DNA from: Hallella seregens ATCC 51272
Lineage (GTDB): Bacteria; Bacteroidota; Bacteroidia; Bacteroidales; Bacteroidaceae
Length of the DNA stretch: 64,000 bases
Direction: 5' to 3'
Assembly (NCBI RefSeq): GCF_000518545.1
Contig: NZ_JADU01000011.1
Coordinates: 62,001 to 126,000 of the forward strand
The notes under the pieces: generated by a model
What the model was told of the DNA's origin: nothing
The model's database searches: none
Seen by the model: only the letters and a program-made list of their open reading frames with translations
In this document: piece by piece, positions 9,571-50,063 of the stretch
How positions within the stretch are numbered: the stretch's first letter is position 1
Layout: each line of letters opens with the position of its first letter
Program-made: the position numbers and the translations under genes

Positions 9571-9662
9571 GTTATTATGTTACTATGTCTTGTTATTGTG
9601 TTACTATGTCTTTAACTACCCGCTCCCGACTTTCGCATCACGTTGCTATGTTGCAATGTCTT
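9571..9662 (+). repeat. Direct repeats, right side of the GxxExxY gene
   Basis: GTTATTATGTTACTATGTCT at 9571 is repeated as GTTATTGTGTTACTATGTCT at 9592 (21-base period), and a decayed third copy (GTTGCTATGTTGCAATGTCT) lies at 9642. They are inverted relative to the copy at 9072-9098 and fill the space between the GxxExxY start and the menB stop. Confidence 0.7.
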
Positions 9663-17858: not shown

Positions 17859-18216
17859 TTTAAAGACATAGCAACATGGTTTAAAGACATAGTAACATAA
17901 TAACAGATGGCTGCGCAATAAGAATAAAGCCACAGGCTTCGACGATGGTTTGCTCTTCAATTTCGGCCGTCTGGACGGTCTTAACATTAATCGTAAGCAC
18001 CGAATTTACAGCCCCTCCACGCCTTTTCATTAAACAAAACAAGAACTTGCTCCCTCCAAACCACCGTGCCAGCTCCATGTTATTATGTTACTCTGTCTTT
18101 AACCTCACCGCGCCAGCCCCATGTTATTATGTTACTCTGTCTTTAACCCCACCGCGCAGCCATATGTAAAATATGTTGTTATGTCTAAAACCACATGTTG
18201 TTATGTCCAAAACCAC
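17859..18216. repeat. Repeat cluster with 21-, 22- and 44-base periods, partly inverted
   Basis: Left side: TTTAAAGACATAGCAACAT (17859) and TTTAAAGACATAGTAACAT (17880) are 21 bases apart. Right side, inverted: GTTATTATGTTACTCTGTCT at 18079 and 18123 (44 apart), then ATGTTGTTATGTCYAAAACC at 18173 and 18195 (22 apart). Between them (about 17905-18078) is a unique stretch with a short minus-strand frame reading VLTINVKTVQTAEIEEQTIV; I do not recognise it and do not call it a gene. The repeat is of the same family as that around the GxxExxY gene. This explains the 371-base gap. Confidence 0.75.
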
Positions 18217-23010: not shown

Positions 23011-26000
23011 TCAATGCTTGTTCGTTTTGCCTTCAAGGGGTTCATGGCGACTGCGTCTGCAAAACTTAGTCGGCGTGGTTCCATAGGACTTTTGGAAACA
23101 CTTTGAGAAGTAACTCGAATTGGTGAAACCGACCATATACATCACTTCGGAAACGGAAAACCTGCCCTCCTTGAGGAGCAGGGCTGCCCGGTTCATGCGG
23201 ATGTTGCGAATGTATTCCACGGGCGACTGGCCCGTGTGGAGTTTCACCTTGCGGTAGAGCAGTTTATTGCCTATGCCAAGTTCGTATTGCAGCATGGACA
23301 CATTGAAGTCGAAGTCCATGATATGATTCTCGATGGTGGCCGTAATGTCGTTCATGAGTCGATTGTCCACCTCGTTTTTGGCCGTGGTCTTCTCCGTAAC
23401 GTCTGCCGACATGGCTGTGCTCGTGATGGCTTGACGAGTGTCACCATTCGGAATGGAGAGGCAGAAGTCGATTCCGCCCTCGTTGTTGCAGCGGGTATAG
23501 AGCTCGCCTTGCATGGCTTGTACGTATTCGCGTGCAAGATAGAGTTCGGTGTTGCTCTCGTTTTTGCCGGCAGAATCATGATTGGCCGGATAGCGCTCGA
23601 AGATGTGCTGTACATCGTTTTCGGTGAACTTGGGCCGGTCTGTAGTGAGGATGATGAGCAGCCGATCCTCTTTTAAGGCAAGTGTCATGACGACATGGCC
23701 GTTGCTGATGGTGTTGTTGACGACAAAACGCAGCAGAATGTACATGATAGCGTCGAAACGTACAATGCCTATGTTTTTGTGCAGATGCCGTTCGGGTGCC
23801 TCAAACTGCAACTCTATGTTGCGCCGTGCAGCCTGTTGCTGCATGTTGCGAACCATTTGCTGACAGAAGGTGTTGAGGTCAATGTCGTGGACGACAAGGT
23901 CGTTTGGCTGCGTCTTCTCGTGATTGTTCAGGTCGAAAGCATGGCGTATGAGCGTGTTCATCTGGGTGGCGGCCTGCTGGATGACGCCCAGTCGGCGAAT
24001 GGTTTCGTCTGTGTGCGTATGCTCAAGAAGCTGCCCAACACCAATGAAAGCATTGGCTATAGGCGTCTTCATTTCCCGTGAGAGCTGATGGAAGAAACGG
24101 TTGCGGGCCTCTTGCTGTTCGAGGATGGACTGTCGTTCCTGCTGTTCTCTGGTCAGGTTCCGGCGCACGCGGATATAGCGTTGGAAGCCTAAGACAAGGG
24201 CCAATGTGAAGACAAGATAGAGCAACTTGGCCCACCACGCCAGATACCATGGCGGAAGAATGCAGATGGGCAGACGGTAGGCTGTGGCCAGTGGATGGCC
24301 CAATCCATCGATAGCAGCTATCTCCAGTTCATAGCTGCCATGGGGAAGCCCGGCAAAATTGAGTTCCAACGAACGGGGATCGAGCTGATACCATGTATCG
24401 CTGCTGCCCTTGAGGCGATAAGCGTAGAGCAATCCTACCTGATTCTTATAAGGTATATCGGTGAAGTTGAGGGTGAGATTGTTCTCGGAACTCTTCAGTT
24501 GCAGTTTGTCTATAAAGCGCGCATCGTAGTGATAATCGGAGAAATTGGTATTGTTGACCTTGATATTCGTGAGCAATAATCGGGGATGAGCGTTGAGTTG
24601 TGACACTATTTGGGGACTGAAAGTGACCATCTCGTCGGTGCCTCCCACATAGAACTCATGGCGTAGCGGGGAATAACAGCTGGCCGACACCCCGATGTCG
24701 GGCAGTCGGAAGATGTTGACATGCCCGTTGTCATCAATGACACGGCAGTTGAAGCGGCTGAAAGCCCAGATGCGACCGTCGGCTTCTTGCATGCTGACAA
24801 TGTTCTTATAGAAACCAGAACCCGAGAAATCGTAGGTCACCGGTGCTTTATCGGGGGCATCGTAGCATTTGATTCCACCATCGTAGGCCATCCAGACGCG
24901 ATGCCGGCGGTCTTCGAGAATACAGTTTGCGTAGTTGTCTGTAACATGGGTAACGCGGTGTCTGGCAGGATCGATGATGTCGATACCACCGTTCGACACT
25001 GTCCAGACGGTGCCCGAATGGGTGGGAAGGAGCTTTTGTACATGAAAGCCCGAAAGGCCATGGGGGCCATCGGTATAGTGTTCGTCTGCGACGCATTCGC
25101 CATTGGAGGCGAGGAGCTTCTGCTTGCTCACGACGAAGATGCCGCCATCGTAGGCTGCCACCCACAGCCGCTGCCGTGAATCGAGGAAAATATCGTATGC
25201 CCAACGTGCACTATGCCGCTTGTTCTTGTTGTAAATAACGAAATTACGCATCTGGTCTTTGGCATGACGATAGAGGTTGATACCGCCATCGGTGGCCACC
25301 CAAATGTCTCCTTGTGGATCCTCATACACTTTGCGTATGCGGTTATGGGAGAGCGGATGCGTCGTGTTACCCTGTCTGAACCACGCCTTTTGGGCAGTTC
25401 CCCTGCCCGTGGAATAGCGGATGAGACCGTTGGTACCCCCGGCCCAGAGGGTGCCCCGGCGGTCAATGTAGAGCTCGTGCAGGTAGTTGCCCTCGTTGGA
25501 ACGCATCATTTCGTCGATGCGATAGCGTTTGAATTGCCGTGCAGCGTGCATGAGCGACAGGCCGGCCTCGTTGCCTAACCACAGGTTCTGCTGTTTGTCG
25601 ATGAACACTCTCCAGATAATATTGTTGCCCAGAGAGAGTGGATTGCCGGAGTCGTGCACAAAATGGCTCAATTTGCTTCCCTCCTTGACATAAAGTCCAT
25701 TGTCGGTACCTATGACAAGACGGCCCCGTCGGTCTTTCGCCATCGACTTGATGCTGTTTCCCTTGAGCCGGGAGAAGGTTTCAAAACGGTTGGAAGCAAT
25801 GTCGAGACTAAGCAGATTGCCTTCGGTACCAATCCAATAACGTGTCCCTTGGTCGTGAGCCAATGAGTTTACGAACACGTGGATGGGATATGTGGTGTAG
25901 TTATTGCCCCGCACCATGTGTAGTCCAGAGAACGAGCCTGCCAGTATTCCTTTAGGCGTGAGTTGCAGAGAATAGACGGTTTTTAACGTCGGACAAAGCT

Positions 26001-26445
26001 GTTGCACGGAGTGATTATCCAGATTATAGGTGAAAAGTCCCTCCATACAGCCAAGGAAGAGCGTGCGTCCACTGGTCACAATGGTGCGTATATCCTTATT
26101 TTGAGAAGACTCCGGCTGTGAGAGCGAACCGTGGAGACGGTCGTAGATAAAGAGTCCTTGGTCGCTACCTAAATAAATATAGCCGTCATGGGCAGCAATG
26201 CAGTAGGTGTTGAAGTTGGTTCCCGACCTATTGGTGAGACGATGGAAGATGCAATTATACCCATCATAACTGTAGAGCCCATGGCCGGCACCCACCCAAA
26301 TAATGCCGTCACGGTCTTGCACGATGTTCATCACGCAATTGTTTTCGCCTACAATGATGTTTTGATAGCCCGTTGCAAACTGGGCAGAAAGGTTTGCAGA
26401 CATGCCTATTGCCAGTAGGAACAGCAGATTTCTCAGATATTTCAT
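23011..26445 (-). CDS. HTCS-derived membrane regulator without phosphorelay residues
   Basis: This 1144-residue protein has the layout of a Bacteroidota hybrid two-component regulator of SusR/HTCS type: signal peptide, two-component-regulator propeller repeats (about 30-650, e.g. DRDGIIWVGAGHGLYSYD), Y_Y_Y domain (about 660-735), one membrane helix (about 748-772), a kinase-like part, and an AraC HTH at the end (SVSEVMYMVGFTNSSYFSKC). The kinase-like part has lost its function. Where the family has ISHELRTPL, this has LSREMKTPI, with Arg790 replacing the phospho-His. The DTGxGI and GTGLGL ATP boxes are not present, and no receiver lies between the ATPase remnant (ends about 1005) and the HTH. 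It is divergent from the susC gene it probably controls. Confidence 0.9.
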   Translation of the reverse strand: MKYLRNLLFLLAIGMSANLSAQFATGYQNIIVGENNCVMNIVQDRDGIIWVGAGHGLYSYDGYNCIFHRLTNRSGTNFNTYCIAAHDGYIYLGSDQGLFIYDRLHGSLSQPESSQNKDIRTIVTSGRTLFLGCMEGLFTYNLDNHSVQQLCPTLKTVYSLQLTPKGILAGSFSGLHMVRGNNYTTYPIHVFVNSLAHDQGTRYWIGTEGNLLSLDIASNRFETFSRLKGNSIKSMAKDRRGRLVIGTDNGLYVKEGSKLSHFVHDSGNPLSLGNNIIWRVFIDKQQNLWLGNEAGLSLMHAARQFKRYRIDEMMRSNEGNYLHELYIDRRGTLWAGGTNGLIRYSTGRGTAQKAWFRQGNTTHPLSHNRIRKVYEDPQGDIWVATDGGINLYRHAKDQMRNFVIYNKNKRHSARWAYDIFLDSRQRLWVAAYDGGIFVVSKQKLLASNGECVADEHYTDGPHGLSGFHVQKLLPTHSGTVWTVSNGGIDIIDPARHRVTHVTDNYANCILEDRRHRVWMAYDGGIKCYDAPDKAPVTYDFSGSGFYKNIVSMQEADGRIWAFSRFNCRVIDDNGHVNIFRLPDIGVSASCYSPLRHEFYVGGTDEMVTFSPQIVSQLNAHPRLLLTNIKVNNTNFSDYHYDARFIDKLQLKSSENNLTLNFTDIPYKNQVGLLYAYRLKGSSDTWYQLDPRSLELNFAGLPHGSYELEIAAIDGLGHPLATAYRLPICILPPWYLAWWAKLLYLVFTLALVLGFQRYIRVRRNLTREQQERQSILEQQEARNRFFHQLSREMKTPIANAFIGVGQLLEHTHTDETIRRLGVIQQAATQMNTLIRHAFDLNNHEKTQPNDLVVHDIDLNTFCQQMVRNMQQQAARRNIELQFEAPERHLHKNIGIVRFDAIMYILLRFVVNNTISNGHVVMTLALKEDRLLIILTTDRPKFTENDVQHIFERYPANHDSAGKNESNTELYLAREYVQAMQGELYTRCNNEGGIDFCLSIPNGDTRQAITSTAMSADVTEKTTAKNEVDNRLMNDITATIENHIMDFDFNVSMLQYELGIGNKLLYRKVKLHTGQSPVEYIRNIRMNRAALLLKEGRFSVSEVMYMVGFTNSSYFSKCFQKSYGTTPTKFCRRSRHEPLEGKTNKH

Positions 26446-26473: not shown

Positions 26474-26521
26474 CTAAAAATACGGAAAAGACATAAATTA
26501 GACGGTAGAAATATCTCGCGT

Positions 26522-26569
26522 TGTCTGTTTTATGTTGCAAAAAACCGACGAAATGTCTATTATGTGTTG
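26522..26569. promoter_or_regulatory. Direct repeat in the regulator-susC gap, candidate operator
   Basis: TGTCTGTTTTATGTTG (26522-26537) and TGTCTATTATGTGTTG (26554-26569) match at 13 of 16 bases and are 32 bases apart, about three helical turns. AraC-type regulators of these loci bind direct repeats near the susC promoter, so this is a candidate site; the match is only suggestive in an AT-rich gap. Confidence 0.3.
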
Positions 26570-26612
26570 TTCAATGTCCAAAAACTTATATCGATTTATG
26601 CCCTATTTTACA

Positions 26613-26680: not shown

Positions 26681-29600
26681 ATGAAACATTACTTTGCTTT
26701 ATTGTGCATGCTGGGACTGCCAATGAGTGCGATGGCACAGCAGCAAGAAGTAACGGGTACAGTCCTCGACGCCAATCGTCAACCGCTGATTGGCGTGACC
26801 GTAAAGGTGCCCGGAACTCCAAGAGCTACAGTAACCGACATGGATGGAAACTACAGCATTTCCGTGAACAGAGGTGAAAAACTTGAGTTCACATATATAG
26901 GATTTAAGCCTCTTACGGCAACAGTCAATAAGGGCCGTATTGACGTAAACATGATGGAAGACGCCAATCTGCTCGACGAAGTCATCGCAACAGGTTACGG
27001 TTCGGTAAGCCGCAAGAACCTCACCACGTCCATTGCCAAGGTGGATGCCGACAAAGTGGTAAAGACCGGAACAACCAACATGAGCCAGATGCTGATGGGG
27101 CGTGCGGCCGGATTGCAGGCGACCATGGCCAGTGCACAGCCTGGTGGCGGCGTGAACATGACCATTCGCGGGGGCGGCCAGCCTCTTTACGTAGTCGACG
27201 GAGTGGTGATGCCGACCGGTTCGCTTGAAGGCGGCTCCGGCGGTTCCACCACCGTTATGCCGTCGAGCGTGAACCGTTCGGGGCTGGCAGGCTTGAATCC
27301 GGACGATATAGAGAGCATAGAAGTGCTGAAAGATGCCTCGGCTTCTATCTATGGAATCAACGCGGCCAACGGCGTGGTGCTCATTACAACCAAGAGCGGA
27401 AAGCAGGGCAAGATGCGTGTGAGCTACGACGGGGAGGTGTCGCTCGTCTCAAATTACAGATACATCAGTTCGCTCAATGCCCGGGAATACATGAGCTATG
27501 CCAACCTGTTCAAGAAAGAACAGTACCTGTTTAATAACCAAATGGCCCCTTATGGCCCCAATGCCTACGACGGAGGCAACTCCGACGTGTTCACAGCAGA
27601 GCAGATTGCAAGCGCGCAAACCACAGACTGGAAGAGCCAAGTGCTGCGCAACGGCAGCATCTCGAGTCACAATGTAACCATTCAGGGAGGTGCCGAAAGA
27701 CTTCAATACTATGTGTCGGGCAACTACTATCGCCAGGTTGGTACTGTTCAGAACAACGCTTACGAGCGATTTATCTTTCGTTCCAATGTAGCTGCGCAGG
27801 TGTTCGACTGGATGAAGATCACGGCCAATGTCAACTATAACCGCAACAACAACAATAACGGTACTGTAGGCGGCACGTCAAACGGGCGCGGTTCTCAGGC
27901 TTCGGGTGCCCTGAGTGCAGCCCTCATCTATCCGTCGAACCTGCCGATCTACAACGAAGATGGCAGTTATACCACCTTTATGAGCGTGCCCAACCCGGTG
28001 GGAATGCTGGACATGACCGACAGATCGAACACTGACGGCTTCAATGCAAACTTTACTTTCGACTTCACCATCGTTCCACAGATGCTGAAAGCCAAGCTGC
28101 TCTATGGTTATAATAAGGAGAATGCAGAGCGCAACGTGTACATACCCTCAACCGTTTACTTCGACCAGATGTTCCGTTCAAGGGGCAGCATGCAGAGCGA
28201 CAAGCGCGACAACACCACCATGGAAGCAACCATCAGCTTCGACCACAACTTCTTCGGCGATGCCCTGACCTTTAATGCTGTGCTGGGCATGGGCCGCTAC
28301 CTGAACCACTCCCACGGCATGGGCATCTCGTACAAGGACATCAACGACGCCTTAGGCAACGACAACATCGCTGCGGCCACGGGCGACAAGACCATCGGCT
28401 CGTATCGCACAAGCGACGAGAAGCGTTCACAGTTTGCGCGCGCCAGCTTCGACCTGCTCGACCGCTACGTGCTCGCGGCAACACTGCGCCGTGACGGTAC
28501 GGACAAGTTCTTCAAAGGCAAGAAATATGCTTGGTTCCCATCCGTATCGGCAGCATGGAAGATATTCAATGAAAACTTCATGAAAGACGTGAAATGGGTG
28601 AACATGCTGAAGCTGCGGGCTTCATACGGTGTGACCGGCAACGACTATTTGAGGGCCTCGCTCTATGGCGCATACAGTGCATTCGGCAATCATGTGATGT
28701 TCGATAACAACACAACCGACCACGTGCCCTACTATCTCGCGAGCAATGACTACCCGGATGTGACCTGGGAGAAGACCGTAATGAAGAACGTCGGACTGGA
28801 TTTTTCGATCCTCAGAGACCGCGTGAGCGGCAGCTTCGACTACTTCGTGAACGACATTACCAACATGCTGGGTTATGCCAATACCGAAGGTCTGTCCATG
28901 TTCAGCACCCATCCCGTCAATGGCGGACACATTCGGCGCTATGGTTGGGACGCTACTGTCAACACCAAGAACATCGTCACTCCGAACTTCAAGTGGGAAT
29001 CCATGCTGACGCTTTCGCACTACAATTCAATCTGGAAAGAGCGCATGCCGCAGTATGACTATCTGGAGTATCAGCAACGAAAGGACGAACCCGTGAATGC
29101 ACTCTACTTTTACCGCACCGCGGGCATCGTGAACAGCGACAAGAGCAACATGCCCGCATACCAGCCGACCCTGTATCAGCATCCCGGTTGCCCCATCATC
29201 AAGGACCTCGACGGCGACAACGAGATTACGGTCAAGGACGTAGACATGGTGAATGTGGTTCCAGCACTCTACTGGGGCTTCGGCAACACCTTTACTTACA
29301 AGGACTGGGACTTGAACATCTTTGTGTATTCGCAGCTTGGACTGAAGAAATACAACTACTCATACGACTGGAGCGACGTGCGCAAACTGGCCAACCAGAC
29401 CTCCAACCAGAGCACGATCGTGGCTGATGTCTACAACTCGCAGACCAATCCCAACGGCACATTGCCAGGCATTGCCTACCGACTTGCCAGTGCCGCATTG
29501 CCGGGCGGGGCGGGCACAGACGTTTATTACCAGGACGCGGGCTTCCTGCGCGTTCGCAACATCACGCTGGGTTACACCTTCTCCAGCACCAACCTCGGCT

Positions 29601-29776
29601 CGCTGAAAAAGCATATCGGCAGCATTCGCATCTATGCAGACGCACAGAATCCATTCACTTTCACCGATTACAAGAACTTCGACCCCGAGGTAACGACCGG
29701 CGGAAGCTACAAGGGCGGCAAGGCCGAGTATCCCATGATACGCACTTTCTCCATGGGAGTAAAGGTTCAATTCTAA
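26681..29776 (+). CDS. SusC/RagA-type TonB-linked outer membrane transporter
   Basis: This 1031-residue SusC-like protein imports oligosaccharides with its SusD partner. A signal peptide ends at MAQQQ; a carboxypeptidase-regulatory-like domain (about 24-95, GTVLDANRQPLIGVTVKVPG) is followed by the linker LLDEVIATGYG, the SusC plug (about 110-235) with QPLYVVDGVV and IEVLKDASASIYGINAANGV, and the barrel. The C-terminus ends in ...VQF. It is the first gene of the galactan locus. The SusD partner starts 34 bases downstream, then a GH53-GH35 enzyme. The divergent HTCS-like protein is the likely regulator. Confidence 0.95.
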   Translation: MKHYFALLCMLGLPMSAMAQQQEVTGTVLDANRQPLIGVTVKVPGTPRATVTDMDGNYSISVNRGEKLEFTYIGFKPLTATVNKGRIDVNMMEDANLLDEVIATGYGSVSRKNLTTSIAKVDADKVVKTGTTNMSQMLMGRAAGLQATMASAQPGGGVNMTIRGGGQPLYVVDGVVMPTGSLEGGSGGSTTVMPSSVNRSGLAGLNPDDIESIEVLKDASASIYGINAANGVVLITTKSGKQGKMRVSYDGEVSLVSNYRYISSLNAREYMSYANLFKKEQYLFNNQMAPYGPNAYDGGNSDVFTAEQIASAQTTDWKSQVLRNGSISSHNVTIQGGAERLQYYVSGNYYRQVGTVQNNAYERFIFRSNVAAQVFDWMKITANVNYNRNNNNNGTVGGTSNGRGSQASGALSAALIYPSNLPIYNEDGSYTTFMSVPNPVGMLDMTDRSNTDGFNANFTFDFTIVPQMLKAKLLYGYNKENAERNVYIPSTVYFDQMFRSRGSMQSDKRDNTTMEATISFDHNFFGDALTFNAVLGMGRYLNHSHGMGISYKDINDALGNDNIAAATGDKTIGSYRTSDEKRSQFARASFDLLDRYVLAATLRRDGTDKFFKGKKYAWFPSVSAAWKIFNENFMKDVKWVNMLKLRASYGVTGNDYLRASLYGAYSAFGNHVMFDNNTTDHVPYYLASNDYPDVTWEKTVMKNVGLDFSILRDRVSGSFDYFVNDITNMLGYANTEGLSMFSTHPVNGGHIRRYGWDATVNTKNIVTPNFKWESMLTLSHYNSIWKERMPQYDYLEYQQRKDEPVNALYFYRTAGIVNSDKSNMPAYQPTLYQHPGCPIIKDLDGDNEITVKDVDMVNVVPALYWGFGNTFTYKDWDLNIFVYSQLGLKKYNYSYDWSDVRKLANQTSNQSTIVADVYNSQTNPNGTLPGIAYRLASAALPGGAGTDVYYQDAGFLRVRNITLGYTFSSTNLGSLKKHIGSIRIYADAQNPFTFTDYKNFDPEVTTGGSYKGGKAEYPMIRTFSMGVKVQF

Positions 29777-29810: not shown

Positions 29811-31418
29811 ATGAAAAAGAACATATTGTACATGGCTTTGGCCATGGGACTCGCCGGCACAGGCCTGACCGGTTGCGAAAACAATTTCGACGCAAAGATA
29901 TTCGGCACGCTGTCCACGACCAATTTCCCGGCTTCGGCGGCCGATTACGAGAGCTACCTGATGGATTGCTACGTGCCTTTCTCCGTGAACTGGGGCTACA
30001 ACTTCTCTTCATGGCAACACAATTTCTACGTAGCTGAAGGCGGACTTTACCGCATGCTCGACACGACAAGCGACGAAAGCAGCGCCTGGAACATCAGTTC
30101 GTTGGGTGGCAGCTGGCAAAAGATGTCGGCCGGGCAGTTCGACGACTTGAAACTTGTGGGCCGCGGTTCGGGCGGCGACCCCAGCCACTACGAGAAAGTG
30201 CGCGACATCACCCGGATGACCAAGATTATAGGCGCCATCGAGAATGCCGACGAGAAAGTGCTTCCGGCTGCGACAAAGGAGGAATACCTGGGCGAGGCCC
30301 GGCTTTGCCGGGGGCTGATGATGTACTATCTGCTGCACTTCTACGGCCCTGTGCCGGTCATCGTGAATCCGAAAGACGTGGGCAGCAAGGAGGCGGAAGC
30401 CAACTTGGTTCGCCCGTCACTCGACCAAATGACCCGGTATATCACCGACGACCTGGAGTATGCCGCCCTGCACGTCAATGAAACCCAGAAAGAAAAGGGA
30501 CGCTACAATGCCGACTACGCCCGCTTCTGCCTGATGCGCCATTACCTGAACGAGGGCTACCACGTGCAAGGCTACTACCAGAAGGCTTGCGATCTGTTCG
30601 GCCAGTTCCATGGCAGCTACAGCTTGTTTGCCGATTATGCCGGCCAGTTCAGGATTGCAAACAAGTTCAACAGTGAAGTAATCATGTCGTGCAGCTGCAG
30701 CAACAACGCCACAGGGTCGGGCACTCAGGGCAACTTTAATCCCACGAGCTGGTATGCAGTGCCCGGCGACGCAACGAAATATGACGACAAGGGCAACCCC
30801 ACCCCGTTCGTGAATCAAGGCGGAGGCTGGGGGCAGTGCTTCAACATCTCGAAATACTTCTACGACACCTTCGAGCCGGGCGACAAGCGCGCGGAGACCA
30901 TCCTGACCCGTTATTACAGCAAGAACAACCATTGGGTGACGGCCGACCATCTGGGCGACCTCTGGGATGGATTCATCGTTAACAAGTATCCCATCGAGAC
31001 GTCGACGGCCTTCCAAGGCACTGACTATCCGTTGGCACGCTGGGCAGACGTGCTGTTGCTCTATGCCGAGGCAGACGCAAGGGCCCACAATGCCGTTTCG
31101 CAAAAGGCTGTAGACTGCGTGAACCAGGTGCGCCATCGCGCAGGGCTGGCCGACCTCGACGCCGGCAAGACCGCCACGGTGGCGGCTTTTCTCGATGCAC
31201 TCTGCACGGAGCGCGGGCACGAACTCTTCTATGAAGGCTGCCGCAAAATCGACTTGATTCGCTTCAACCAGTACTACACACGCATGAAAGCCAGCGGACG
31301 AACACCGTCGAGCGAGTATTTCCCCATACCCGACTTTGCCGTCAATCAGGCCAAGGACGGAGGAAAAGAGCTCACGCAGTACTTCACCCGCGACAATTAC
31401 GACGGCCCCAAAAGATAA
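29811..31418 (+). CDS. SusD/RagB-type surface glycan-binding lipoprotein
   Basis: This 535-residue SusD-like lipoprotein caps the SusC channel and captures glycan at the cell surface. The lipobox is LTGC (GTGLTGCENNF), with the cysteine near residue 22 and acidic residues after it, consistent with surface export. The helical TPR-like N-terminal half contains EARLCRGLMMYYLLHFYG. The C-terminal half has YPLARWADVLLLYAEADA and ALCTERGHELFYEGCRKIDLIRF, both strong SusD signatures. It lies between susC and the GH53-GH35 gene and is probably co-transcribed with susC. Confidence 0.95.
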   Translation: MKKNILYMALAMGLAGTGLTGCENNFDAKIFGTLSTTNFPASAADYESYLMDCYVPFSVNWGYNFSSWQHNFYVAEGGLYRMLDTTSDESSAWNISSLGGSWQKMSAGQFDDLKLVGRGSGGDPSHYEKVRDITRMTKIIGAIENADEKVLPAATKEEYLGEARLCRGLMMYYLLHFYGPVPVIVNPKDVGSKEAEANLVRPSLDQMTRYITDDLEYAALHVNETQKEKGRYNADYARFCLMRHYLNEGYHVQGYYQKACDLFGQFHGSYSLFADYAGQFRIANKFNSEVIMSCSCSNNATGSGTQGNFNPTSWYAVPGDATKYDDKGNPTPFVNQGGGWGQCFNISKYFYDTFEPGDKRAETILTRYYSKNNHWVTADHLGDLWDGFIVNKYPIETSTAFQGTDYPLARWADVLLLYAEADARAHNAVSQKAVDCVNQVRHRAGLADLDAGKTATVAAFLDALCTERGHELFYEGCRKIDLIRFNQYYTRMKASGRTPSSEYFPIPDFAVNQAKDGGKELTQYFTRDNYDGPKR

Positions 31419-31439: not shown

Positions 31440-31471
31440 TTGGGGGCTCAACAACTTATTTGCTATCTTTG
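31440..31471 (+). promoter_or_regulatory. Promoter of the GH53-GH35 gene
   Basis: TTG at 31440-31442 and TATCTTTG at 31464-31471 are 21 bases apart, and the -7 box lies 21 bases before the ATG. The enzyme gene thus has its own promoter in addition to any read-through from susCD. Confidence 0.5.
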
Positions 31472-31492
31472 CAAAAACCAAAAACTGTATTT

Positions 31493-34400
31493 ATGAAGAA
31501 AGCTATCTTTGCACTTTTTCTCATGGCATTGTCCCTGCCTGCATGGGGACAACAGAGGCAAACATTCTGGCTGGGCGCAGACATCAGCGGGACCACCCAA
31601 CTGGAACACGCCGGAGTGGCGTTGCGAAATGCCCGTGGACGCGTCGCGAATAACGTCTGTTTGCAACGGCTTTACGGCGTGAACGCAGCGCGTTTACGGG
31701 TTTGGGTAAACCCCAAAAACGGTTGGTGCGGCAAGGACGACGTGCTCCAGATGGCGCAGCGTGCCCAAGCCCACGGCATGGCCGTCATGCTCGACTTCCA
31801 TTATTCTGACTCCTGGGCGGACCCCGGACACCAGGACATTCCGGCGGCGTGGCAGAAAATGAGCTATGGCCAGATGCGCAAGGCGCTGGCCCGCCACACT
31901 GCCGATGTGCTGCAGGCCCTGAAAAGCCACGGCATCGAGGTGAAATGGGTGCAGGTGGGAAACGAGACAACCCACGGTTTTCTCTGGCCCATGGGCAGGG
32001 CCGAGGAGAATATGAAGCAGTATGCCGGCCTCACCCAGGCAGGATATGACGCCGTGAAGTCGGTCTATCCAGAGGCAGCGTGCATCGTTCATCTTGACGG
32101 AGGCTGCGACCAGGAGCGTTACGACCGCATTTTCGACGGGCTCAGGCAGTATGGCGCCAAGTGGGACATGATTGGGCTCAGTGTCTATCCTTATTGGGAC
32201 CAGGAAGCCAAACTTACCTCTTCAGACGAGGAAACGCTGCAAAAGGCTGTGGCCAACATCAATCATCTCTACGCCAAGTATGGCTCGGAGTCGATGATTG
32301 TCGAGACGGGTTACGATGCCGACCGACCCGTGCAGGGACGCGAGTTCATGAAACGGCTCATCGATGCAGCTGCCCATCAGACGGACGGGCACTGCCATGG
32401 GGTGTTCTACTGGGCTCCCGAACTCGAAGGCCAGTACAAACTGGGGGCATTCCGCAATCATCGTCCCACGGTCATCATGGATGCTTTCAGGGAGGCGGCA
32501 ACCATGGTGAATGCCCGGCCAGCAGTGACGTGGGACGGCCTGAGCCTCATGATAGACGGCAAGCGCGTGGCGCCCGTGATGGGCGAAATTCACTACAGCC
32601 GCATTCCCGCCGAGGAATGGGCCCGCGAGGTGCACAAAATGAAGCTTGGCGGAATCACGATGATAGCCTGCTACGTGTTCTGGAACCATATAGAAGAGGT
32701 GGAAGGACAATACGATTGGAGCGGCCGGCGCAGTCTGCGCGACTTCCTCGAGGTGTGCCAGCTGGAGGGCTTGCCCGTGATTCTGCGGCTGGGGCCGTTC
32801 TGCCATGGCGAGGTGCGCCATGGCGGCATTCCCGACTGGGCGTTGAAGCGTGGGGTGAAAATGCGCTCGGAGAATCCGGAGTTTCTCGAAATGGCCAGAA
32901 ACCTCTATCGCCAAATCTTCACGCAGGTGCAGGGATTGCAGTGGAAAGACGGCGGGCCGGTCGTTGCGGCACAGTTTGACAACGAGTTCGGCGGGCATGC
33001 TTCCTATCTGCTTTCGCTGAAGAAGATTGCGAAAGAGGTAGGTTTCGACCTCCCGTTCTATACGCGCACGGGCTGGCCCAAATTGGCCGACAAGATGCCC
33101 TACGGCGAGATGATTCCGCTCTTTGGCGATTATGCCGACGGTTTCTGGGACCGTTCTGTCAAGGAGACCGCCGGAAATTACTGGCAGGCATTCCATTTTC
33201 AGCCCAGCCGGGCCAACGAAAACATCGGTTCCGAGCAGATAGACTACGGCAGACAAGGTGCAGAAAGGGAGAATGCCGACCTGCAATACCCTTATTTCAC
33301 CTGTGAATTGGGCGGCGGAATGATGACGAGCTTCCACCGCAGGGTATATCTCTATCCTGCCGATGCCTATTCCATGGCAATGGTAAAGCTCGGATCGGGA
33401 AGCAATCTGTTGGGTTATTACATGTATCACGGCGGCACGAACCCCGACGGCAAACTCACGACACTCAATGAAATGCAGCGCACCATGGCCACCAACTATA
33501 ACGATCTGCCGGTGAAAACCTATGATTTTCAGGCTCCCCTGGGCGAGTTCGGGCAGGTGAACCCCCACTTTTTCACGTTGCGCAAGCTGCATGTGTTCAT
33601 GCGCGACTTCGGCGAACTCCTGGCCCCGATGGCGGCCGCGTTCCCTGAAGATGCGGTGTTCCGAAAGGGCGACGACTCGAAACTGCGCTGGAACTACCGC
33701 CATGACGGCGACAAGGCCTTCGTATTTGTGAACAATTATGAGCGGCTGCAGGGGCTCTCGGCCAAGCAAGGCGTGCAGTTCACGGTTTGCGGCGTGACCT
33801 TTCCACAGCGCCCAATGGTGGTGCCCGCAGGTGGAGTGGCTGCCTTTCCCGTGAACCTTCGGCTTGGAGACGTCCGTTTGAAGTATGCAACAGCCCAGCT
33901 CCTGGCCCGGCGTGAGAGGGCAAATGGGCGCGTGGCTTATTATTTCTTCCAGCCTGAGGGCTTTGCAACGGAGTTCATGGTGGACGGCAAACTGCTGGGC
34001 AACGTCCGTCCTCAAGGCACCAAGAAAGCCATATACAAGCGGGGGAACACCGATTTCTATCTGCTTGCAGCGGCAGAAGCGGAAAGTTTCGACCTCGACC
34101 TGGACTATCTGAAGCTGCATTCGCCCGCGGCACAGTCCGTGCTCGATGAGCATGCAAGGACTGTCTTGCCGCAGAGCCCCGGCGTGACGGTGGCCGTGAC
34201 CAAGGTTCGCGAGGCCAGGCCTGAACGCTCCATCACGGTCGGAGCGGCCGGTGTCGCTGAAGAACCGACGGATGAAGACTTTGAGCACGCTGCGGTTTAT
34301 CTGCTGGATCTCTCCCGGATAGGCGATTGGCACAGCGGCCTGAAAGTGCTCGACATTGAATATCAGGGAGACGTGGCCCGGTTGTACTGTGATGGAAAAC

Positions 34401-34579
34401 TCCTCGACGACAACTTCTACAATGGCCGCCACTTTCAGTTTGGGCTCTGGCGCGTGCCGGAAAACTGCAGGCAACTGGAACTCCGCATACTTCCATTGCA
34501 GAAAGACATGGAGGTGTATTTCCCCCAAGAAGCCAAGCGCGAATTGGGCGAGAAAGTGATTTCGGTGACCGTGAAATAG
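31493..34579 (+). CDS. GH53-GH35 fusion: endo-galactanase joined to beta-galactosidase
   Basis: This 1028-residue secreted protein joins two glycosidases. Residues 1-20 are a signal peptide (ending PAWGQQ). About 22-340 are GH53 endo-beta-1,4-galactanase: FWLGADISG, RLRVWVNPKNGWCG, acid/base Glu158 in WVQVGNETTHGF and nucleophile Glu271 in MIVETGYDAD. From about 355 the sequence is GH35 beta-galactosidase: PVMGEIHYSRIPAEEW, acid/base Glu498 in AAQFDNEFGG, nucleophile Glu605 in FTCELGGGMM, GYYMYHGGTNPDG, then C-terminal beta-sandwich domains. All four catalytic residues are present. The enzyme could cut beta-1,4-galactan internally and trim galactose from the ends, matching its SusCD neighbours. 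The reading frame is continuous across the junction, so the fusion is not an artefact of frame. Confidence 0.93.
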   Translation: MKKAIFALFLMALSLPAWGQQRQTFWLGADISGTTQLEHAGVALRNARGRVANNVCLQRLYGVNAARLRVWVNPKNGWCGKDDVLQMAQRAQAHGMAVMLDFHYSDSWADPGHQDIPAAWQKMSYGQMRKALARHTADVLQALKSHGIEVKWVQVGNETTHGFLWPMGRAEENMKQYAGLTQAGYDAVKSVYPEAACIVHLDGGCDQERYDRIFDGLRQYGAKWDMIGLSVYPYWDQEAKLTSSDEETLQKAVANINHLYAKYGSESMIVETGYDADRPVQGREFMKRLIDAAAHQTDGHCHGVFYWAPELEGQYKLGAFRNHRPTVIMDAFREAATMVNARPAVTWDGLSLMIDGKRVAPVMGEIHYSRIPAEEWAREVHKMKLGGITMIACYVFWNHIEEVEGQYDWSGRRSLRDFLEVCQLEGLPVILRLGPFCHGEVRHGGIPDWALKRGVKMRSENPEFLEMARNLYRQIFTQVQGLQWKDGGPVVAAQFDNEFGGHASYLLSLKKIAKEVGFDLPFYTRTGWPKLADKMPYGEMIPLFGDYADGFWDRSVKETAGNYWQAFHFQPSRANENIGSEQIDYGRQGAERENADLQYPYFTCELGGGMMTSFHRRVYLYPADAYSMAMVKLGSGSNLLGYYMYHGGTNPDGKLTTLNEMQRTMATNYNDLPVKTYDFQAPLGEFGQVNPHFFTLRKLHVFMRDFGELLAPMAAAFPEDAVFRKGDDSKLRWNYRHDGDKAFVFVNNYERLQGLSAKQGVQFTVCGVTFPQRPMVVPAGGVAAFPVNLRLGDVRLKYATAQLLARRERANGRVAYYFFQPEGFATEFMVDGKLLGNVRPQGTKKAIYKRGNTDFYLLAAAEAESFDLDLDYLKLHSPAAQSVLDEHARTVLPQSPGVTVAVTKVREARPERSITVGAAGVAEEPTDEDFEHAAVYLLDLSRIGDWHSGLKVLDIEYQGDVARLYCDGKLLDDNFYNGRHFQFGLWRVPENCRQLELRILPLQKDMEVYFPQEAKRELGEKVISVTVK

Positions 34580-47339: not shown

Positions 47340-50063
47340 ATGCTTATGCCATACTGCAATAAATCATTTTTCACGCACGCACTCATTGCCGCGCTATCTT
47401 TGACCATGCTGCTGTCCTGCGGCAGCAATGATAAGAAGACAAAGATCGGAGTTGTGCTCTACCATCAGTTCTCGTGGCGGGAAAAACTTGCCAATGAGAT
47501 AAACTACGCGTCGTTCAGATATGAGAATCTGAATGTCACCACCGTGTCGTCAAACAATAACAGCTCGCAGCAGGTACACCAAATAGACTCCTTAGTAAAG
47601 GAAGGGATTGACCTACTCATCATATCGCCCATACCGACAAAGGAAGTTATAGACGCCATAAACCGCTGCTACGACCGCAACATACCGGTAGTGCTTGTAG
47701 ACAACAAGAGCATCAACTGCAAGTACACGGCATTCATAGGCGCAGACAACGAGGAAATAGGGCGGTCGGTAGGCGAATATATCGGACGCATGCTGATGCC
47801 GACAGGCGGCAAAGTGCTTGAGGTGCAGGGCAAAGCAGGCGACCTCGCCACGGAAGAACGCCACCGCGGATTTATTAGTGCACTGAAAGCCTTTCCACAA
47901 GTACAGGTAGTTGCCTCGCCACACGGTGACTGGAACTACCCGACTGCCGAGGCTATAGTTGACAAGGCGCTCGCTATGCACGACGATATAAGCGTGGTGT
48001 TCTACCATAGCGATGGTATGGTCAACTACAAACTGCAGAGCCGCTATCTTGCCAAGGGCAAGTTGCTGAAAGTTATCGGCATCGACGCCCTCGCCCAAAA
48101 ACCGTCCGGCATCGAACAAGTGAAGAAAAACTCTATCTCGGCAAGCTTCGTCTACCCTACGAGAGGCGACAAAGTGGTAGACCTTGCCATGAAAATCATA
48201 AACCGACAACCCTACACAAGGGACGAGATACTGCCTACCGGCGTTGTCGACCGCGACAACGTCTCCACCATACTGCAGCAACATATAGAAATCGACAGGC
48301 TTGACTCGCAGATACAGTCGATGCGTGTGCAGATAGACATGTCACAAACAGAGAGTACCTTGCGACTGCGCATATCACTGCTACTCACCATACTCGTCAT
48401 CTCACTCGCCATCTACTGCGTCACGATATACCGCTCGTTCAAGAAGAAACACGAGCTGCACGCCACCATAAAGAAGCAATATGCAGAGAAAGAGATACAG
48501 ACACAGAAACTGCTTGAGAGCAACAACCGCCTGCTGTTGCTCAACCAACAGATAGAGGAAGAGGTGCAGACAAAACTCAACTTCTTCACCAACGTAAGCC
48601 ATGAGTTCCGCACTCCGCTGACACTTATTGCCGGACCGATAGAGAAACTGCGCACCGACGAAAGGCTGACGGAGGCGCAACGCCATAGTCTGCTTGACGT
48701 TGCGAGCAAGAATCTGTCCACTCTCATGAGTCTTGTAAGCGACATTCTCGACTTCAGAAAGGTGCAGGACGGCAAGATGGAGCTGCGATTAGAACAGTTT
48801 GAGCTTGTCAAGGCACTGAAAGACTGGACCGACAACTTCCGCAACCACGCCATCAGCAAAAACATTTCGCTTGAGTTCAACCACGAAAAGACACGTACTC
48901 TCTGGGGCCAGGCAGACAGAAAGAAGATGACAAGCATCGTTGTAAACATGCTCGGCAACGCTTTCAAACATACACCCGACGGGGGACGCATCACCTTGTC
49001 GCTCACTTCCGACAACGACACGTTCACGCTGAAGGTGTGCGACACGGGAGAAGGCATTGCCCCGGACGTGCTGCCAAGAATATTTGACGGCTTCTATCAA
49101 GCGCCTGGCAGCCAATCGGGCACAGGATTAGGACTGACTTTCACCAAGTCGCTTGTCGAACTGCACCACGGAACCATCAGTGCGGAAAGCACCGTAGGCT
49201 CGGGAACGACCTTCACCGTGACCATGCCCATAGCCCAAAAACGCGAAGAGATGGAGCAAAAGCTACTGGACGACGACAAGATGTTGGAGGAAGTAAACAT
49301 ACAAGGAGCCAGCAAGCCACGCGTATTGATTATCGACGATAACAAAGACATGTGCGAATATGTGCGCGTAATACTTGGTAACGAGTACGAATGCCAGGAG
49401 GCTTACAACGGCAAGGAGGGCTATGAGAAAGCGCTCCACTGGATTCCGGACATCGTGGTGTGCGACGTTATGATGCCCGTAATGGACGGAATAACATGCT
49501 GTCAGAAGCTGAAGACGACAACAGCAACCAGCCACATACCCGTGATATTGCTCACGGCGCGGTCGCTCGAGAGCAACTACATTGAGGGATACGACAACGG
49601 TGCCGACGCCTACATCACCAAGCCGTTCTCCGCAGAGGTGCTCACGGCGAGAGTGGAAAATCTGCTTGCCAACCGCAAGTTGCTGCGCGAGTCGTTTGCC
49701 CACGACGACAACAAATTCGAAATGTTTGCCACTCCGCGCGAGTCGGAGTTCGTCAAACGCTTCCAGGACTGCATAAAGGAGAACTGCTCAAGCCCCGACC
49801 TCAACATCGAAGACATCAGTTCAAAGATGAATCTGAGCCGGGCGCAGCTCTATGCGAAGATAAAGAACCTGACAGGACAGGCTCCTGTCGAGCACATACG
49901 AATGATTCGGCTGGAGTGTAGCCGTGAGTTGCTGCGCACAACAGAACTCACCATTGCGGAGATAGGCTACAAAGTCGGGTTCTCTTCACCCGCCTACTTC
50001 TCCAAATGCTTCAAGGACCAGTACAACATGACGCCTAACGAATTCCGCAACCAGAAGCGCTGA
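47340..50063 (+). CDS. Hybrid two-component regulator with periplasmic sugar-binding sensor
   Basis: This 907-residue HTCS carries all phosphorelay parts in one chain. The sensor (about 40-315) is a periplasmic-binding-protein type 1 fold (KIGVVLYHQFSW, VVLVDNKS, GFISALKAF), like the fructose sensor BT1754, so it should bind a monosaccharide. A membrane helix follows (about 345-365). The HisKA has phospho-His421 in FFTNVSHEFRTPL; the ATPase shows NMLGNAFKHTPDGG, DTGEGIAP and GTGLGL. The receiver (about 660-775) has Asp709 in VVCDVMMPVMDG. The C-terminal AraC HTH has IAEIGYKVGFSSPAYFSKCF. An N-terminal LLSC resembles a lipobox but may be only part of the signal anchor. It starts the second polysaccharide locus. 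Confidence 0.95.
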   Translation: MLMPYCNKSFFTHALIAALSLTMLLSCGSNDKKTKIGVVLYHQFSWREKLANEINYASFRYENLNVTTVSSNNNSSQQVHQIDSLVKEGIDLLIISPIPTKEVIDAINRCYDRNIPVVLVDNKSINCKYTAFIGADNEEIGRSVGEYIGRMLMPTGGKVLEVQGKAGDLATEERHRGFISALKAFPQVQVVASPHGDWNYPTAEAIVDKALAMHDDISVVFYHSDGMVNYKLQSRYLAKGKLLKVIGIDALAQKPSGIEQVKKNSISASFVYPTRGDKVVDLAMKIINRQPYTRDEILPTGVVDRDNVSTILQQHIEIDRLDSQIQSMRVQIDMSQTESTLRLRISLLLTILVISLAIYCVTIYRSFKKKHELHATIKKQYAEKEIQTQKLLESNNRLLLLNQQIEEEVQTKLNFFTNVSHEFRTPLTLIAGPIEKLRTDERLTEAQRHSLLDVASKNLSTLMSLVSDILDFRKVQDGKMELRLEQFELVKALKDWTDNFRNHAISKNISLEFNHEKTRTLWGQADRKKMTSIVVNMLGNAFKHTPDGGRITLSLTSDNDTFTLKVCDTGEGIAPDVLPRIFDGFYQAPGSQSGTGLGLTFTKSLVELHHGTISAESTVGSGTTFTVTMPIAQKREEMEQKLLDDDKMLEEVNIQGASKPRVLIIDDNKDMCEYVRVILGNEYECQEAYNGKEGYEKALHWIPDIVVCDVMMPVMDGITCCQKLKTTTATSHIPVILLTARSLESNYIEGYDNGADAYITKPFSAEVLTARVENLLANRKLLRESFAHDDNKFEMFATPRESEFVKRFQDCIKENCSSPDLNIEDISSKMNLSRAQLYAKIKNLTGQAPVEHIRMIRLECSRELLRTTELTIAEIGYKVGFSSPAYFSKCFKDQYNMTPNEFRNQKR

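Follow-up and report, generated by a model that had tools for sequence, protein, structure and literature searches.

Regulator gene and its domains

The window analysed here, a stretch of 64,000 nucleotides from Hallella seregens ATCC 51272 (contig NZ_JADU01000011.1, positions 62,001 to 126,000), carries at 23011-26445 of its reverse strand a reading frame that begins with ATG, is uninterrupted for 1144 codons and encodes a 1144-residue relative of the hybrid two-component systems (HTCSs). The susC and susD genes and a fusion of glycoside hydrolase families 53 and 35 (GH53 and GH35) run divergently from this regulator gene (Table 1). A preliminary description of the sequence had proposed that the protein has lost its phosphorelay and passes its signal mechanically from the periplasm to the DNA-binding domain; the open frame and the adjoining GH53-GH35 locus on which that proposal was built are both present as described.

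The loss of the phosphate-relay parts of the window protein is well supported by sequence comparison. The alignment places Arg790, within LSREMKTPI, at the position of the phosphorylated His, in agreement with the preliminary description, and no conserved shifted His takes its place, with His786, four residues upstream, being present in 1 of the 17 aligned rows. The Pfam HisKA score (19.6 bits) is below the cut-off of 26.9. Compared with the intact relative L009 (relatives are referred to below by such locus numbers), the N box reads ILLRFVVNNT (903-912) for NLLSNAAKYT, the G1 box LTTDRPKF (933-940) for VKDTGIGI, and the G2 box ESNTELYLAR (963-972) for GTGIGLYLAK. The HATPase_c match (27.9 bits) nevertheless stays just above its cut-off of 26.4, so that the CA fold is still recognised; the ATP boxes, described earlier as gone, are indeed lost, whereas the fold that carried them is not. 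The receiver, also described as missing, gave no Response_reg match in Pfam up to an E-value of 10. Reg_prop, Y_Y_Y and AraC all score above their cut-offs (HTH_18 at 68 bits), which, together with the membrane helix seen in the structure model, bears out that the sensing and DNA-binding ends have been kept.

The full-length model (AlphaFold2, 46-row alignment), with a mean predicted local distance difference test (pLDDT) score of 84.9, consists of the propeller sensor with its Y_Y_Y domain, a long helix (737-809) followed by a second one (813-837), an alpha/beta CA-like domain (852-999) with pLDDT mostly >80 and a disordered or low-confidence lid, a linker of 20 residues (1004-1023) with pLDDT <50, and the AraC domain, which extends to residue 1134. 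The long helix is assigned to the membrane from the sequence and the model. Neither this model nor a second one of the cytoplasmic part alone (pLDDT 81.2) contains a receiver-like domain, and a hidden receiver or a displaced His, either of which would have undermined the proposal, can thus be discarded on the models and the 17-row alignment.

The closest solved structures to the window sensor are those of BT4673 (Z 44.8, 34% identical, root-mean-square deviation (rmsd) 20.3 over 702 residues), and the BT4673 sensor is also found by a sequence search with the window sensor (E 3.6e-118); the high rmsd suggests that the sub-domains are rotated relative to each other. The two PDB titles of BT4673 disagree, 3ott being called a putative one-component system and 3va6 a hybrid two-component system. 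The cytoplasmic part resembles histidine-kinase cores; the pseudokinase DivL heads its structural matches (Z 20.1, rmsd 3.6 over 166 residues), level with numerous active kinases. DivL, which is not known to have a DNA-binding domain, acts on other kinases.

In terms of known classes, the window protein shares with HTCSs the periplasmic sensor, a putative membrane helix and the AraC domain, and lacks the three remaining HTCS components, namely a HisKA domain with a phospho-accepting His, a HATPase domain with N and G boxes and a receiver with a phospho-Asp. Its DHp and CA fold without catalytic residues is that of a pseudo-histidine kinase, and the combination of a membrane helix and a DNA-binding domain on one chain corresponds to the anatomy of a transmembrane one-component regulator (TTR).

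Table 1. Features of the regulator gene and of the divergent locus (positions in the window)
Feature	Position	Strand	Remarks
Regulator gene	23011..26445	-	1144 codons; propeller sensor, Y_Y_Y, membrane helix, pseudo-kinase core, AraC domain
AraC-type DNA-binding domain, residues 1024-1134	23044..23376	-	Pfam and model
Low-confidence linker, residues 1004-1023	23377..23436	-	site of the receiver in intact HTCSs
Pseudo-CA domain, residues 852-999	23449..23892	-	fold retained; N, G1 and G2 boxes lost
Membrane helix into DHp-like hairpin, residues 737-837	23935..24237	-	model helices 737-809 and 813-837
Arg790 codon at the phospho-His place	24076..24078	-	alignment
Periplasmic sensor, residues 27-731	24253..26367	-	Reg_prop propellers and Y_Y_Y; presumed periplasmic
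N-terminal stretch, residues 1-26	26368..26445	-	likely signal or anchor helix (putative role); model helix 2-16
Further half-site TTGTCT	26521..26526	+	32 bp upstream of the repeat
Candidate operator, direct repeat ATGTCT-N15-ATGTCC	26553..26579	+	21-bp step; starts 128 bp before the susC ATG
susC-like transporter	26681..29776	+	first gene of the likely target operon
susD-like protein	29811..31418	+	
GH53 fused to GH35	31460..34579	+	listed TTG start

Receiver-less relatives and the course of the loss

As judged from the sequences of relatives, the loss is graded and repeated and extends beyond the one window protein. A search of 398 genomes of the genus gave matches at E<=1e-45 in 29, and 18 of these carry receiver-less proteins (19 in number). 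The near relatives L009 and L040 are intact, L041, which ends at a contig end, and L049, which is broken by a stop, are both undecided, and the remaining matches were more distant HTCSs or were not fetched. In Pfam the 19 proteins give no Response_reg match at all, AraC, Y_Y_Y and Reg_prop in every one, HATPase_c in 6 and HisKA in 5. A wider scan covered a collection of 84,980 species genomes, from which the best 80 loci were taken, and the counts of relatives are accordingly lower bounds. Receiver-less proteins occur in isolates as well, namely in Segatella copri iA622, S. baroniae DSM 16972, S. paludivivens DSM 17968, Prevotella illustrans A2931, Prevotella sp. P5-92, Prevotella sp. AGR2160 and Bacteroides congonensis, which argues that the losses are more than errors of metagenome assembly.

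In a tree of 87 non-redundant proteins, calculated with the DHp, CA and receiver columns excluded, at least 22 non-redundant receiver-less proteins, the window protein included, form one group with a support of 100 in the Shimodaira-Hasegawa-like approximate likelihood-ratio test (SH-aLRT). Its named rows belong to Prevotella or Segatella, except for L071, the sister row of the window protein, which is titled uncultured Bacteroides. Left out of the tree were 16 near-identical rows and the loci L012-L030, as well as L041, L049, L103, L106, L111, L119, L132 and L150, which are truncated or fragmentary. Both this tree and the 54-row tree used below are quick searches with midpoint roots and uneven letter make-up, and their starred branches are to be taken with some reserve. 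The phospho-His column of the group holds another residue in 19 proteins, His in 1 and is absent from 2, the non-His residues being of nine different kinds. Counted over the rows that have the respective column, the His is present in 1/20, the N-box Asn in 1/15 and the DxG motif in 0/15, and the tree set also contains 57 relatives with a receiver Asp, in every one of which H, N and DxG are intact. The loss is thus common to the whole group, and the count of homologues sharing it, which the preliminary description had proposed as a check, rules out a recent decay of the window copy alone.

Within this group the loss is found at several grades. In the first, represented by the window protein, L072, L073 and L078 among others, a dead core is kept and most proteins have 1099-1181 residues; in the second (L005, L006, L008, L084, L086 and L097; 953-1009 residues) the CA domain is deleted; and in the third, represented by L010 (885 residues), both DHp and CA are absent. 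The catalytic domain is absent in 7 of the 22 and the whole core in one of those 7. Two further proteins are L088 (1020 residues), with a CA-like part and no His stretch, and L134 (1007 residues), with a dead core and a shorter listed frame. Outside the group, Bacteroides L079 and L090 have no receiver and have Asn in place of the phospho-His, with the N, G1 and G2 boxes intact, whereas L131, which adjoins them in the tree, has lost the core entirely. L079 (9989-13507) and L090 (9956-13501) are BT4673-like and perhaps represent an early stage of the same conversion. In the rumen proteins L118 and L125 the ATP boxes are present, and no HisKA and no receiver match was obtained. These two, from rumen Bacteroidales (L118, 9914-12973; L125, 1189-4221; HATPase_c 72.6 and 70.2 bits), have an ATP-binding-type domain between the membrane helix and the AraC domain, which might sense ATP or merely gate.

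The number of losses was addressed by approximately unbiased (AU) tests on a quick tree of 54 rows (LG+G4), with groups that were defined after the first tree had been seen. A single receiver loss uniting the window group with L079, L090 and L131 is rejected (p=0.0014), as is one that unites all of these with L118 and L125 (p=7.8e-5), whereas the test allows the rumen pair to belong to the window group (p=0.70). Two losses are therefore the firm minimum, and the Bacteroides proteins L079, L090 and L131 appear from these sequence trees to represent a loss separate from that of the window group. L011 and L142 look like additional losses, placed on long branches and outside the AU tests. With respect to the order, receiver-less rows with the His or the ATP boxes exist, and all 57 receiver-bearing rows retain both, which suggests that the receiver was lost first in the galactan HTCS family.

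The comparison of coding sequences indicates that the kept domains are constrained and that the dead core is less constrained, yet not free. Pairwise ratios of nonsynonymous to synonymous rates (dN/dS) were calculated per domain with our own Nei-Gojobori script for six usable pairs of the 22-protein group, giving 0.06-0.21 for the sensor and 0-0.08 for the AraC domain. In the four pairs that have it, the dead CA domain gave 0.09-0.36, as compared with 0.06-0.14 for CA plus receiver in three intact pairs, and the dead DHp of the same four pairs gave 0.07-0.49 vs 0.02-0.05 in the intact ones. Ratios could not be formed for L038/L050, L009/L040, the L079/L090 sensor and the L081/L127 AraC part, where dS is saturated; dS is high (0.7-2.0) for L005/L097 and L006/L086, and the very close pair L036/L037 has wide core intervals, that of DHp extending to values above 1. 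The purifying selection that had been suggested as a check is hence found for the sensor and AraC domains of related pairs, the window gene itself being too distant for a ratio of its own.

In most HTCSs the receiver is believed to hold the DNA-binding domain in a clamp, and HTCS fragments in which the contact between the two is disturbed are reported to bind DNA without phosphate (PMC11253607). The contact His of the S/CHIP motif, which was described by Gao 2024 and is given in print as 91% (PMC11253607), was found at the second place of the motif in 2 of 35 BT4673-like HTCSs with the motif. In the remaining HTCSs of the genus the proportion was 11 of 19 (Fisher p=4e-5), and in all other HTCSs examined it was 17 of 40. 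The BT4673-like set of 38 was hand-picked by tree position and includes four fragments outside the tree, with the motif being found in 35; the comparison was made after the sequences had been seen and, because the rows are related, is a lead only. The alpha3-beta4 loop of the intact receivers reads STIP, ATIP or STTP in 18 of the 35, e.g. in L009, L040, L081 and L127. On these sequences, the replacement of the contact His while the receiver was still present may have been the permissive step.

Neighbouring locus and candidate operator

The GH53 and GH35 parts of the fusion lie in one frame of 1039 residues. A GH53 relative occurs in the fetched flanks of 16 members of the 22-protein group, two of these matches being weak (102 and 117 bits). 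A further 3 members have GH35 without GH53, and 3 have neither, one of which had a flank of only 7 kb. The window SusC is 26-28% identical to SusC at most loci of the clade, and 71% and 68% identical at L056 and L063, respectively, a pattern from which it seems that the transporter pair has been exchanged under a kept type of sensor.

Between the divergent genes lies a candidate operator, the half-sites of which are repeated in tandem 21 bp apart. Among 23 upstream regions that were examined first, some of them from close relatives and scored after the sequences had been seen, half-sites of the form [ATC]TGTC[CT] recur at step 21 in 13, as compared with a mean of 0.003 and a maximum of 1 in 300 shuffles. 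In a wider set, scored with [AT]TGTC[CT] half-sites and a position filter, step 21 occurs at 28 of 89 loci, 14 of them belonging to the 28 receiver-less loci and 14 to the 61 others, and any other step between 10 and 40 at 3 loci at most. This count left out three near copies and several duplicate loci but still contains close relatives (e.g. L054 and L072), and several of the 61 other loci were unchecked for an intact kinase. The HTCS motifs of B. thetaiotaomicron are likewise reported to have a mean step of 21 bp, interpreted as dimers with a separation of two helical turns (PMC3878776). The occurrence of the repeat at both receiver-less and other loci suggests that, at the loci having it, the DNA side looks alike with or without a phosphorelay. 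Two more repeats of the form ATGTCT-N15-ATGTCT with the same step lie in the window at 9585-9611 (+), starting 71 bp before a 287-residue frame, and at 17864-17890 (-), and may be due to chance. The window also contains, at 47340-50063, an intact HTCS of 907 residues with a periplasmic-binding-protein sensor, HisKA, HATPase, receiver and AraC domains, which provides a useful contrast.

Published work on galactan use bears on related loci. The HTCS for pectic galactan in B. thetaiotaomicron is BT4673, the disruption of which was reported to reduce growth on this substrate to 21.6% of the wild type (PMC3243724). In S. copri DSM18205, specific induction by pectic galactan is reported for the genes NQ544_12965-12985 (SusC, SusD, SGBP-B, GH53 and GH2), and NQ544_12990 next to them, named as an HTCS, is described as not regulated (PMC11784079); the S. 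copri pectic galactan locus is also reported to have been confirmed by transcriptomics and gene inactivation (PMC11107044). The corresponding gene order of S. copri iA622 is SusC-SusD-SusE/DUF5111-GH53-GH2-regulator, and its 953-residue regulator has no Pfam HisKA, HATPase or receiver match at E 0.01. By analogy, the DSM18205 regulator would resemble that of iA622, in which case a galactan-induced locus would lie beside a regulator incapable of phosphotransfer.

Proposed mechanism, alternatives and wider meaning

Taken together, the window protein is probably a membrane-bound one-component regulator of pectic galactan use, which derives from an HTCS of the BT4673 type and works by conformational coupling. 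In the proposed model, a galactan oligosaccharide would bind to the periplasmic propeller dimer, which would close in a scissor-like manner, as reported for the hybrid kinase BT4663 (PMC8534201). This would alter the spacing of the two membrane helices and of the remaining DHp-like helices, allowing the two tethered AraC domains to settle on tandem half-sites two helical turns apart and to activate susC. With no receiver the clamp is gone, and the geometry of the tethered AraC domains, i.e. their distance and face, may then exert the control. The pseudo-CA domain would be at most a structural spacer or steric gate; that relatives without CA or without DHp persist is the argument for regarding the core as only a spacer. 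We infer from the sequence that signalling by the window protein is mechanical and proceeds without phosphotransfer.

For the lineage as a whole, a broader scheme can be put forward tentatively, at a strength that stops somewhat short of an even bet. In this scheme, galactan HTCSs would have turned from two-component to one-component regulators repeatedly and in an ordered manner, with replacement of the contact His followed by successive loss of, first, the receiver, next the phospho-His, next the ATP boxes and finally CA or the whole core, the sensor type, the DNA-binding domain and the 21-bp operator being kept and the core serving as a spacer left with the sole function of passing the movement of the membrane helices on to the DNA-binding domains.

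Several observations have to be weighed against these two proposals. The role of the window protein is based on sequence, models and analogy, and its nearest relatives are <40% identical, so that the selection figures are those of related pairs only. Within the receiver-less group, L084 retains the His (with CA and receiver gone) and L076 the N-box Asn, and the Asp and Lys on the DNA-binding side of the receiver contact, located through a published distance, are still present in 14 and 17 of the 22 rows, respectively, window protein included. The receiver-first order is partly circular, as the rows were grouped by receiver absence, and the opposite order occurs elsewhere, BT4236 being reported to have lost the His and kept the receiver (PMC11253607). 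With the filters applied here, no 21-bp repeat was seen at 14 of the 28 receiver-less loci and at 47 of the 61 others, and the loci that have it include close relatives. When used as a genome-wide regulon finder, the operator pattern gave 13 hits vs 12 in a reversed control and is not specific; what stands out in the repeat is its position and step and not the bare pattern. The title of 3ott calls BT4673 a putative one-component system, whereas the cited papers say HTCS, and the likeness between the DSM18205 and iA622 regulators is drawn from gene order.

Among the alternatives, the one that survives best, unlikely as it is, is constitutive DNA binding, with galactan induction being provided by another regulator or by catabolite relief and the sensor being a relic or level tuner. 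It would fit the phosphate-free binding of HTCS fragments described above and the statement that two AraC DNA-binding domains side by side activate transcription (PMC11253607), whereas the purifying selection on the sensor in related pairs and the specific galactan induction of the S. copri locus speak against it. Less probable is a pseudokinase acting in trans, which would pair with an intact HTCS or kinase and borrow its activity. DivL as the top structural match, albeit a tied one, and the intact HTCSs of the genome, including the one in the window, would be in its favour; it is opposed by the lack of a receiver to accept the phosphate and by the persistence of members without CA, or without DHp and CA, from which it follows that phosphotransfer cannot reach their AraC domain in cis. 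Equally improbable is a signal-dependent proteolysis that frees the AraC domain from the membrane: in its favour, cleavage would be sterically possible in the low-confidence, probably flexible linker of the model; against it, the tandem repeat suits a tethered dimer equally. Least probable of all is a pseudogene on its way out that regulates nothing, for which the freely variable residues at the lost catalytic motifs and the weaker constraint on the dead DHp might speak, and which the open frame, the constrained AraC and sensor domains, the losses common to 22 rows and the often retained GH53 neighbour and repeat argue against.

Coupling without phosphotransfer, as preferred here, can be compared with several known systems. 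SusR is not known to use phosphotransfer. SusR-like regulators are described as membrane proteins that bind sugar in the periplasm and activate a polysaccharide locus, which is the role proposed for the window protein; the sites predicted for SusR are separated by 67 or 77 bp vs the 21-bp step found here, the comparison being one of sites and not of protein sequence (PMC3878776). With BT4673 (the HTCS_Pga type) the window protein shares the propeller and Y_Y_Y sensor, the membrane helix, the AraC domain, the GH53 and SusCD neighbours and the 21-bp tandem repeat, and it differs in having no phospho-His, N, G1 and G2 boxes or receiver. BT4236 of B. thetaiotaomicron also has its phospho-His replaced (by Gln), and its authors suggest a phosphorylation-independent mechanism; it retains the receiver contact motif (CSIP-EK), whereas the window group has no receiver and a loss graded across the group (PMC11253607). 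The TTRs, including the PilS/PilR chimera Rsp of Neisseria gonorrhoeae, likewise have a membrane sensor and a DNA-binding domain on one chain, but Rsp consists of parts of two proteins joined together, whereas the window lineage appears to be an already fused HTCS that loses its middle stepwise (PMC10269533). A description of a receiver-less HTCS group was not found in searches of an open-licence library, subscription papers being outside its coverage. With BT4236, Rsp and SusR as partial precedents, what is unusual about the group is the preserved path to the one-component state.

The genome itself encodes three further sensor-AraC proteins, of 996, 733 and 673 residues (L155, 883-3870 (-); L156, 928-3126 (-); L157, 1017-3035 (-)). 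None has a HisKA, HATPase or receiver match in Pfam; Y_Y_Y is above the cut-off in the first two and below it in L157, and all look membrane-spanning by eye. The one-component end state may accordingly be common in this genome.

A 2023 survey considered it possible that TTRs originated from two-component systems (PMC10269533), and the graded intermediates of the galactan HTCS family make this question testable, given that the grades have a sensor family and, at many loci, a type of operator in common. In the galactan loci of Segatella, genes annotated as HTCSs may be devoid of a phosphorelay, a point of relevance to models of fibre sensing by gut Segatella, and a regulator of the window type is a candidate phosphate-free glycan sensor for reporter design.

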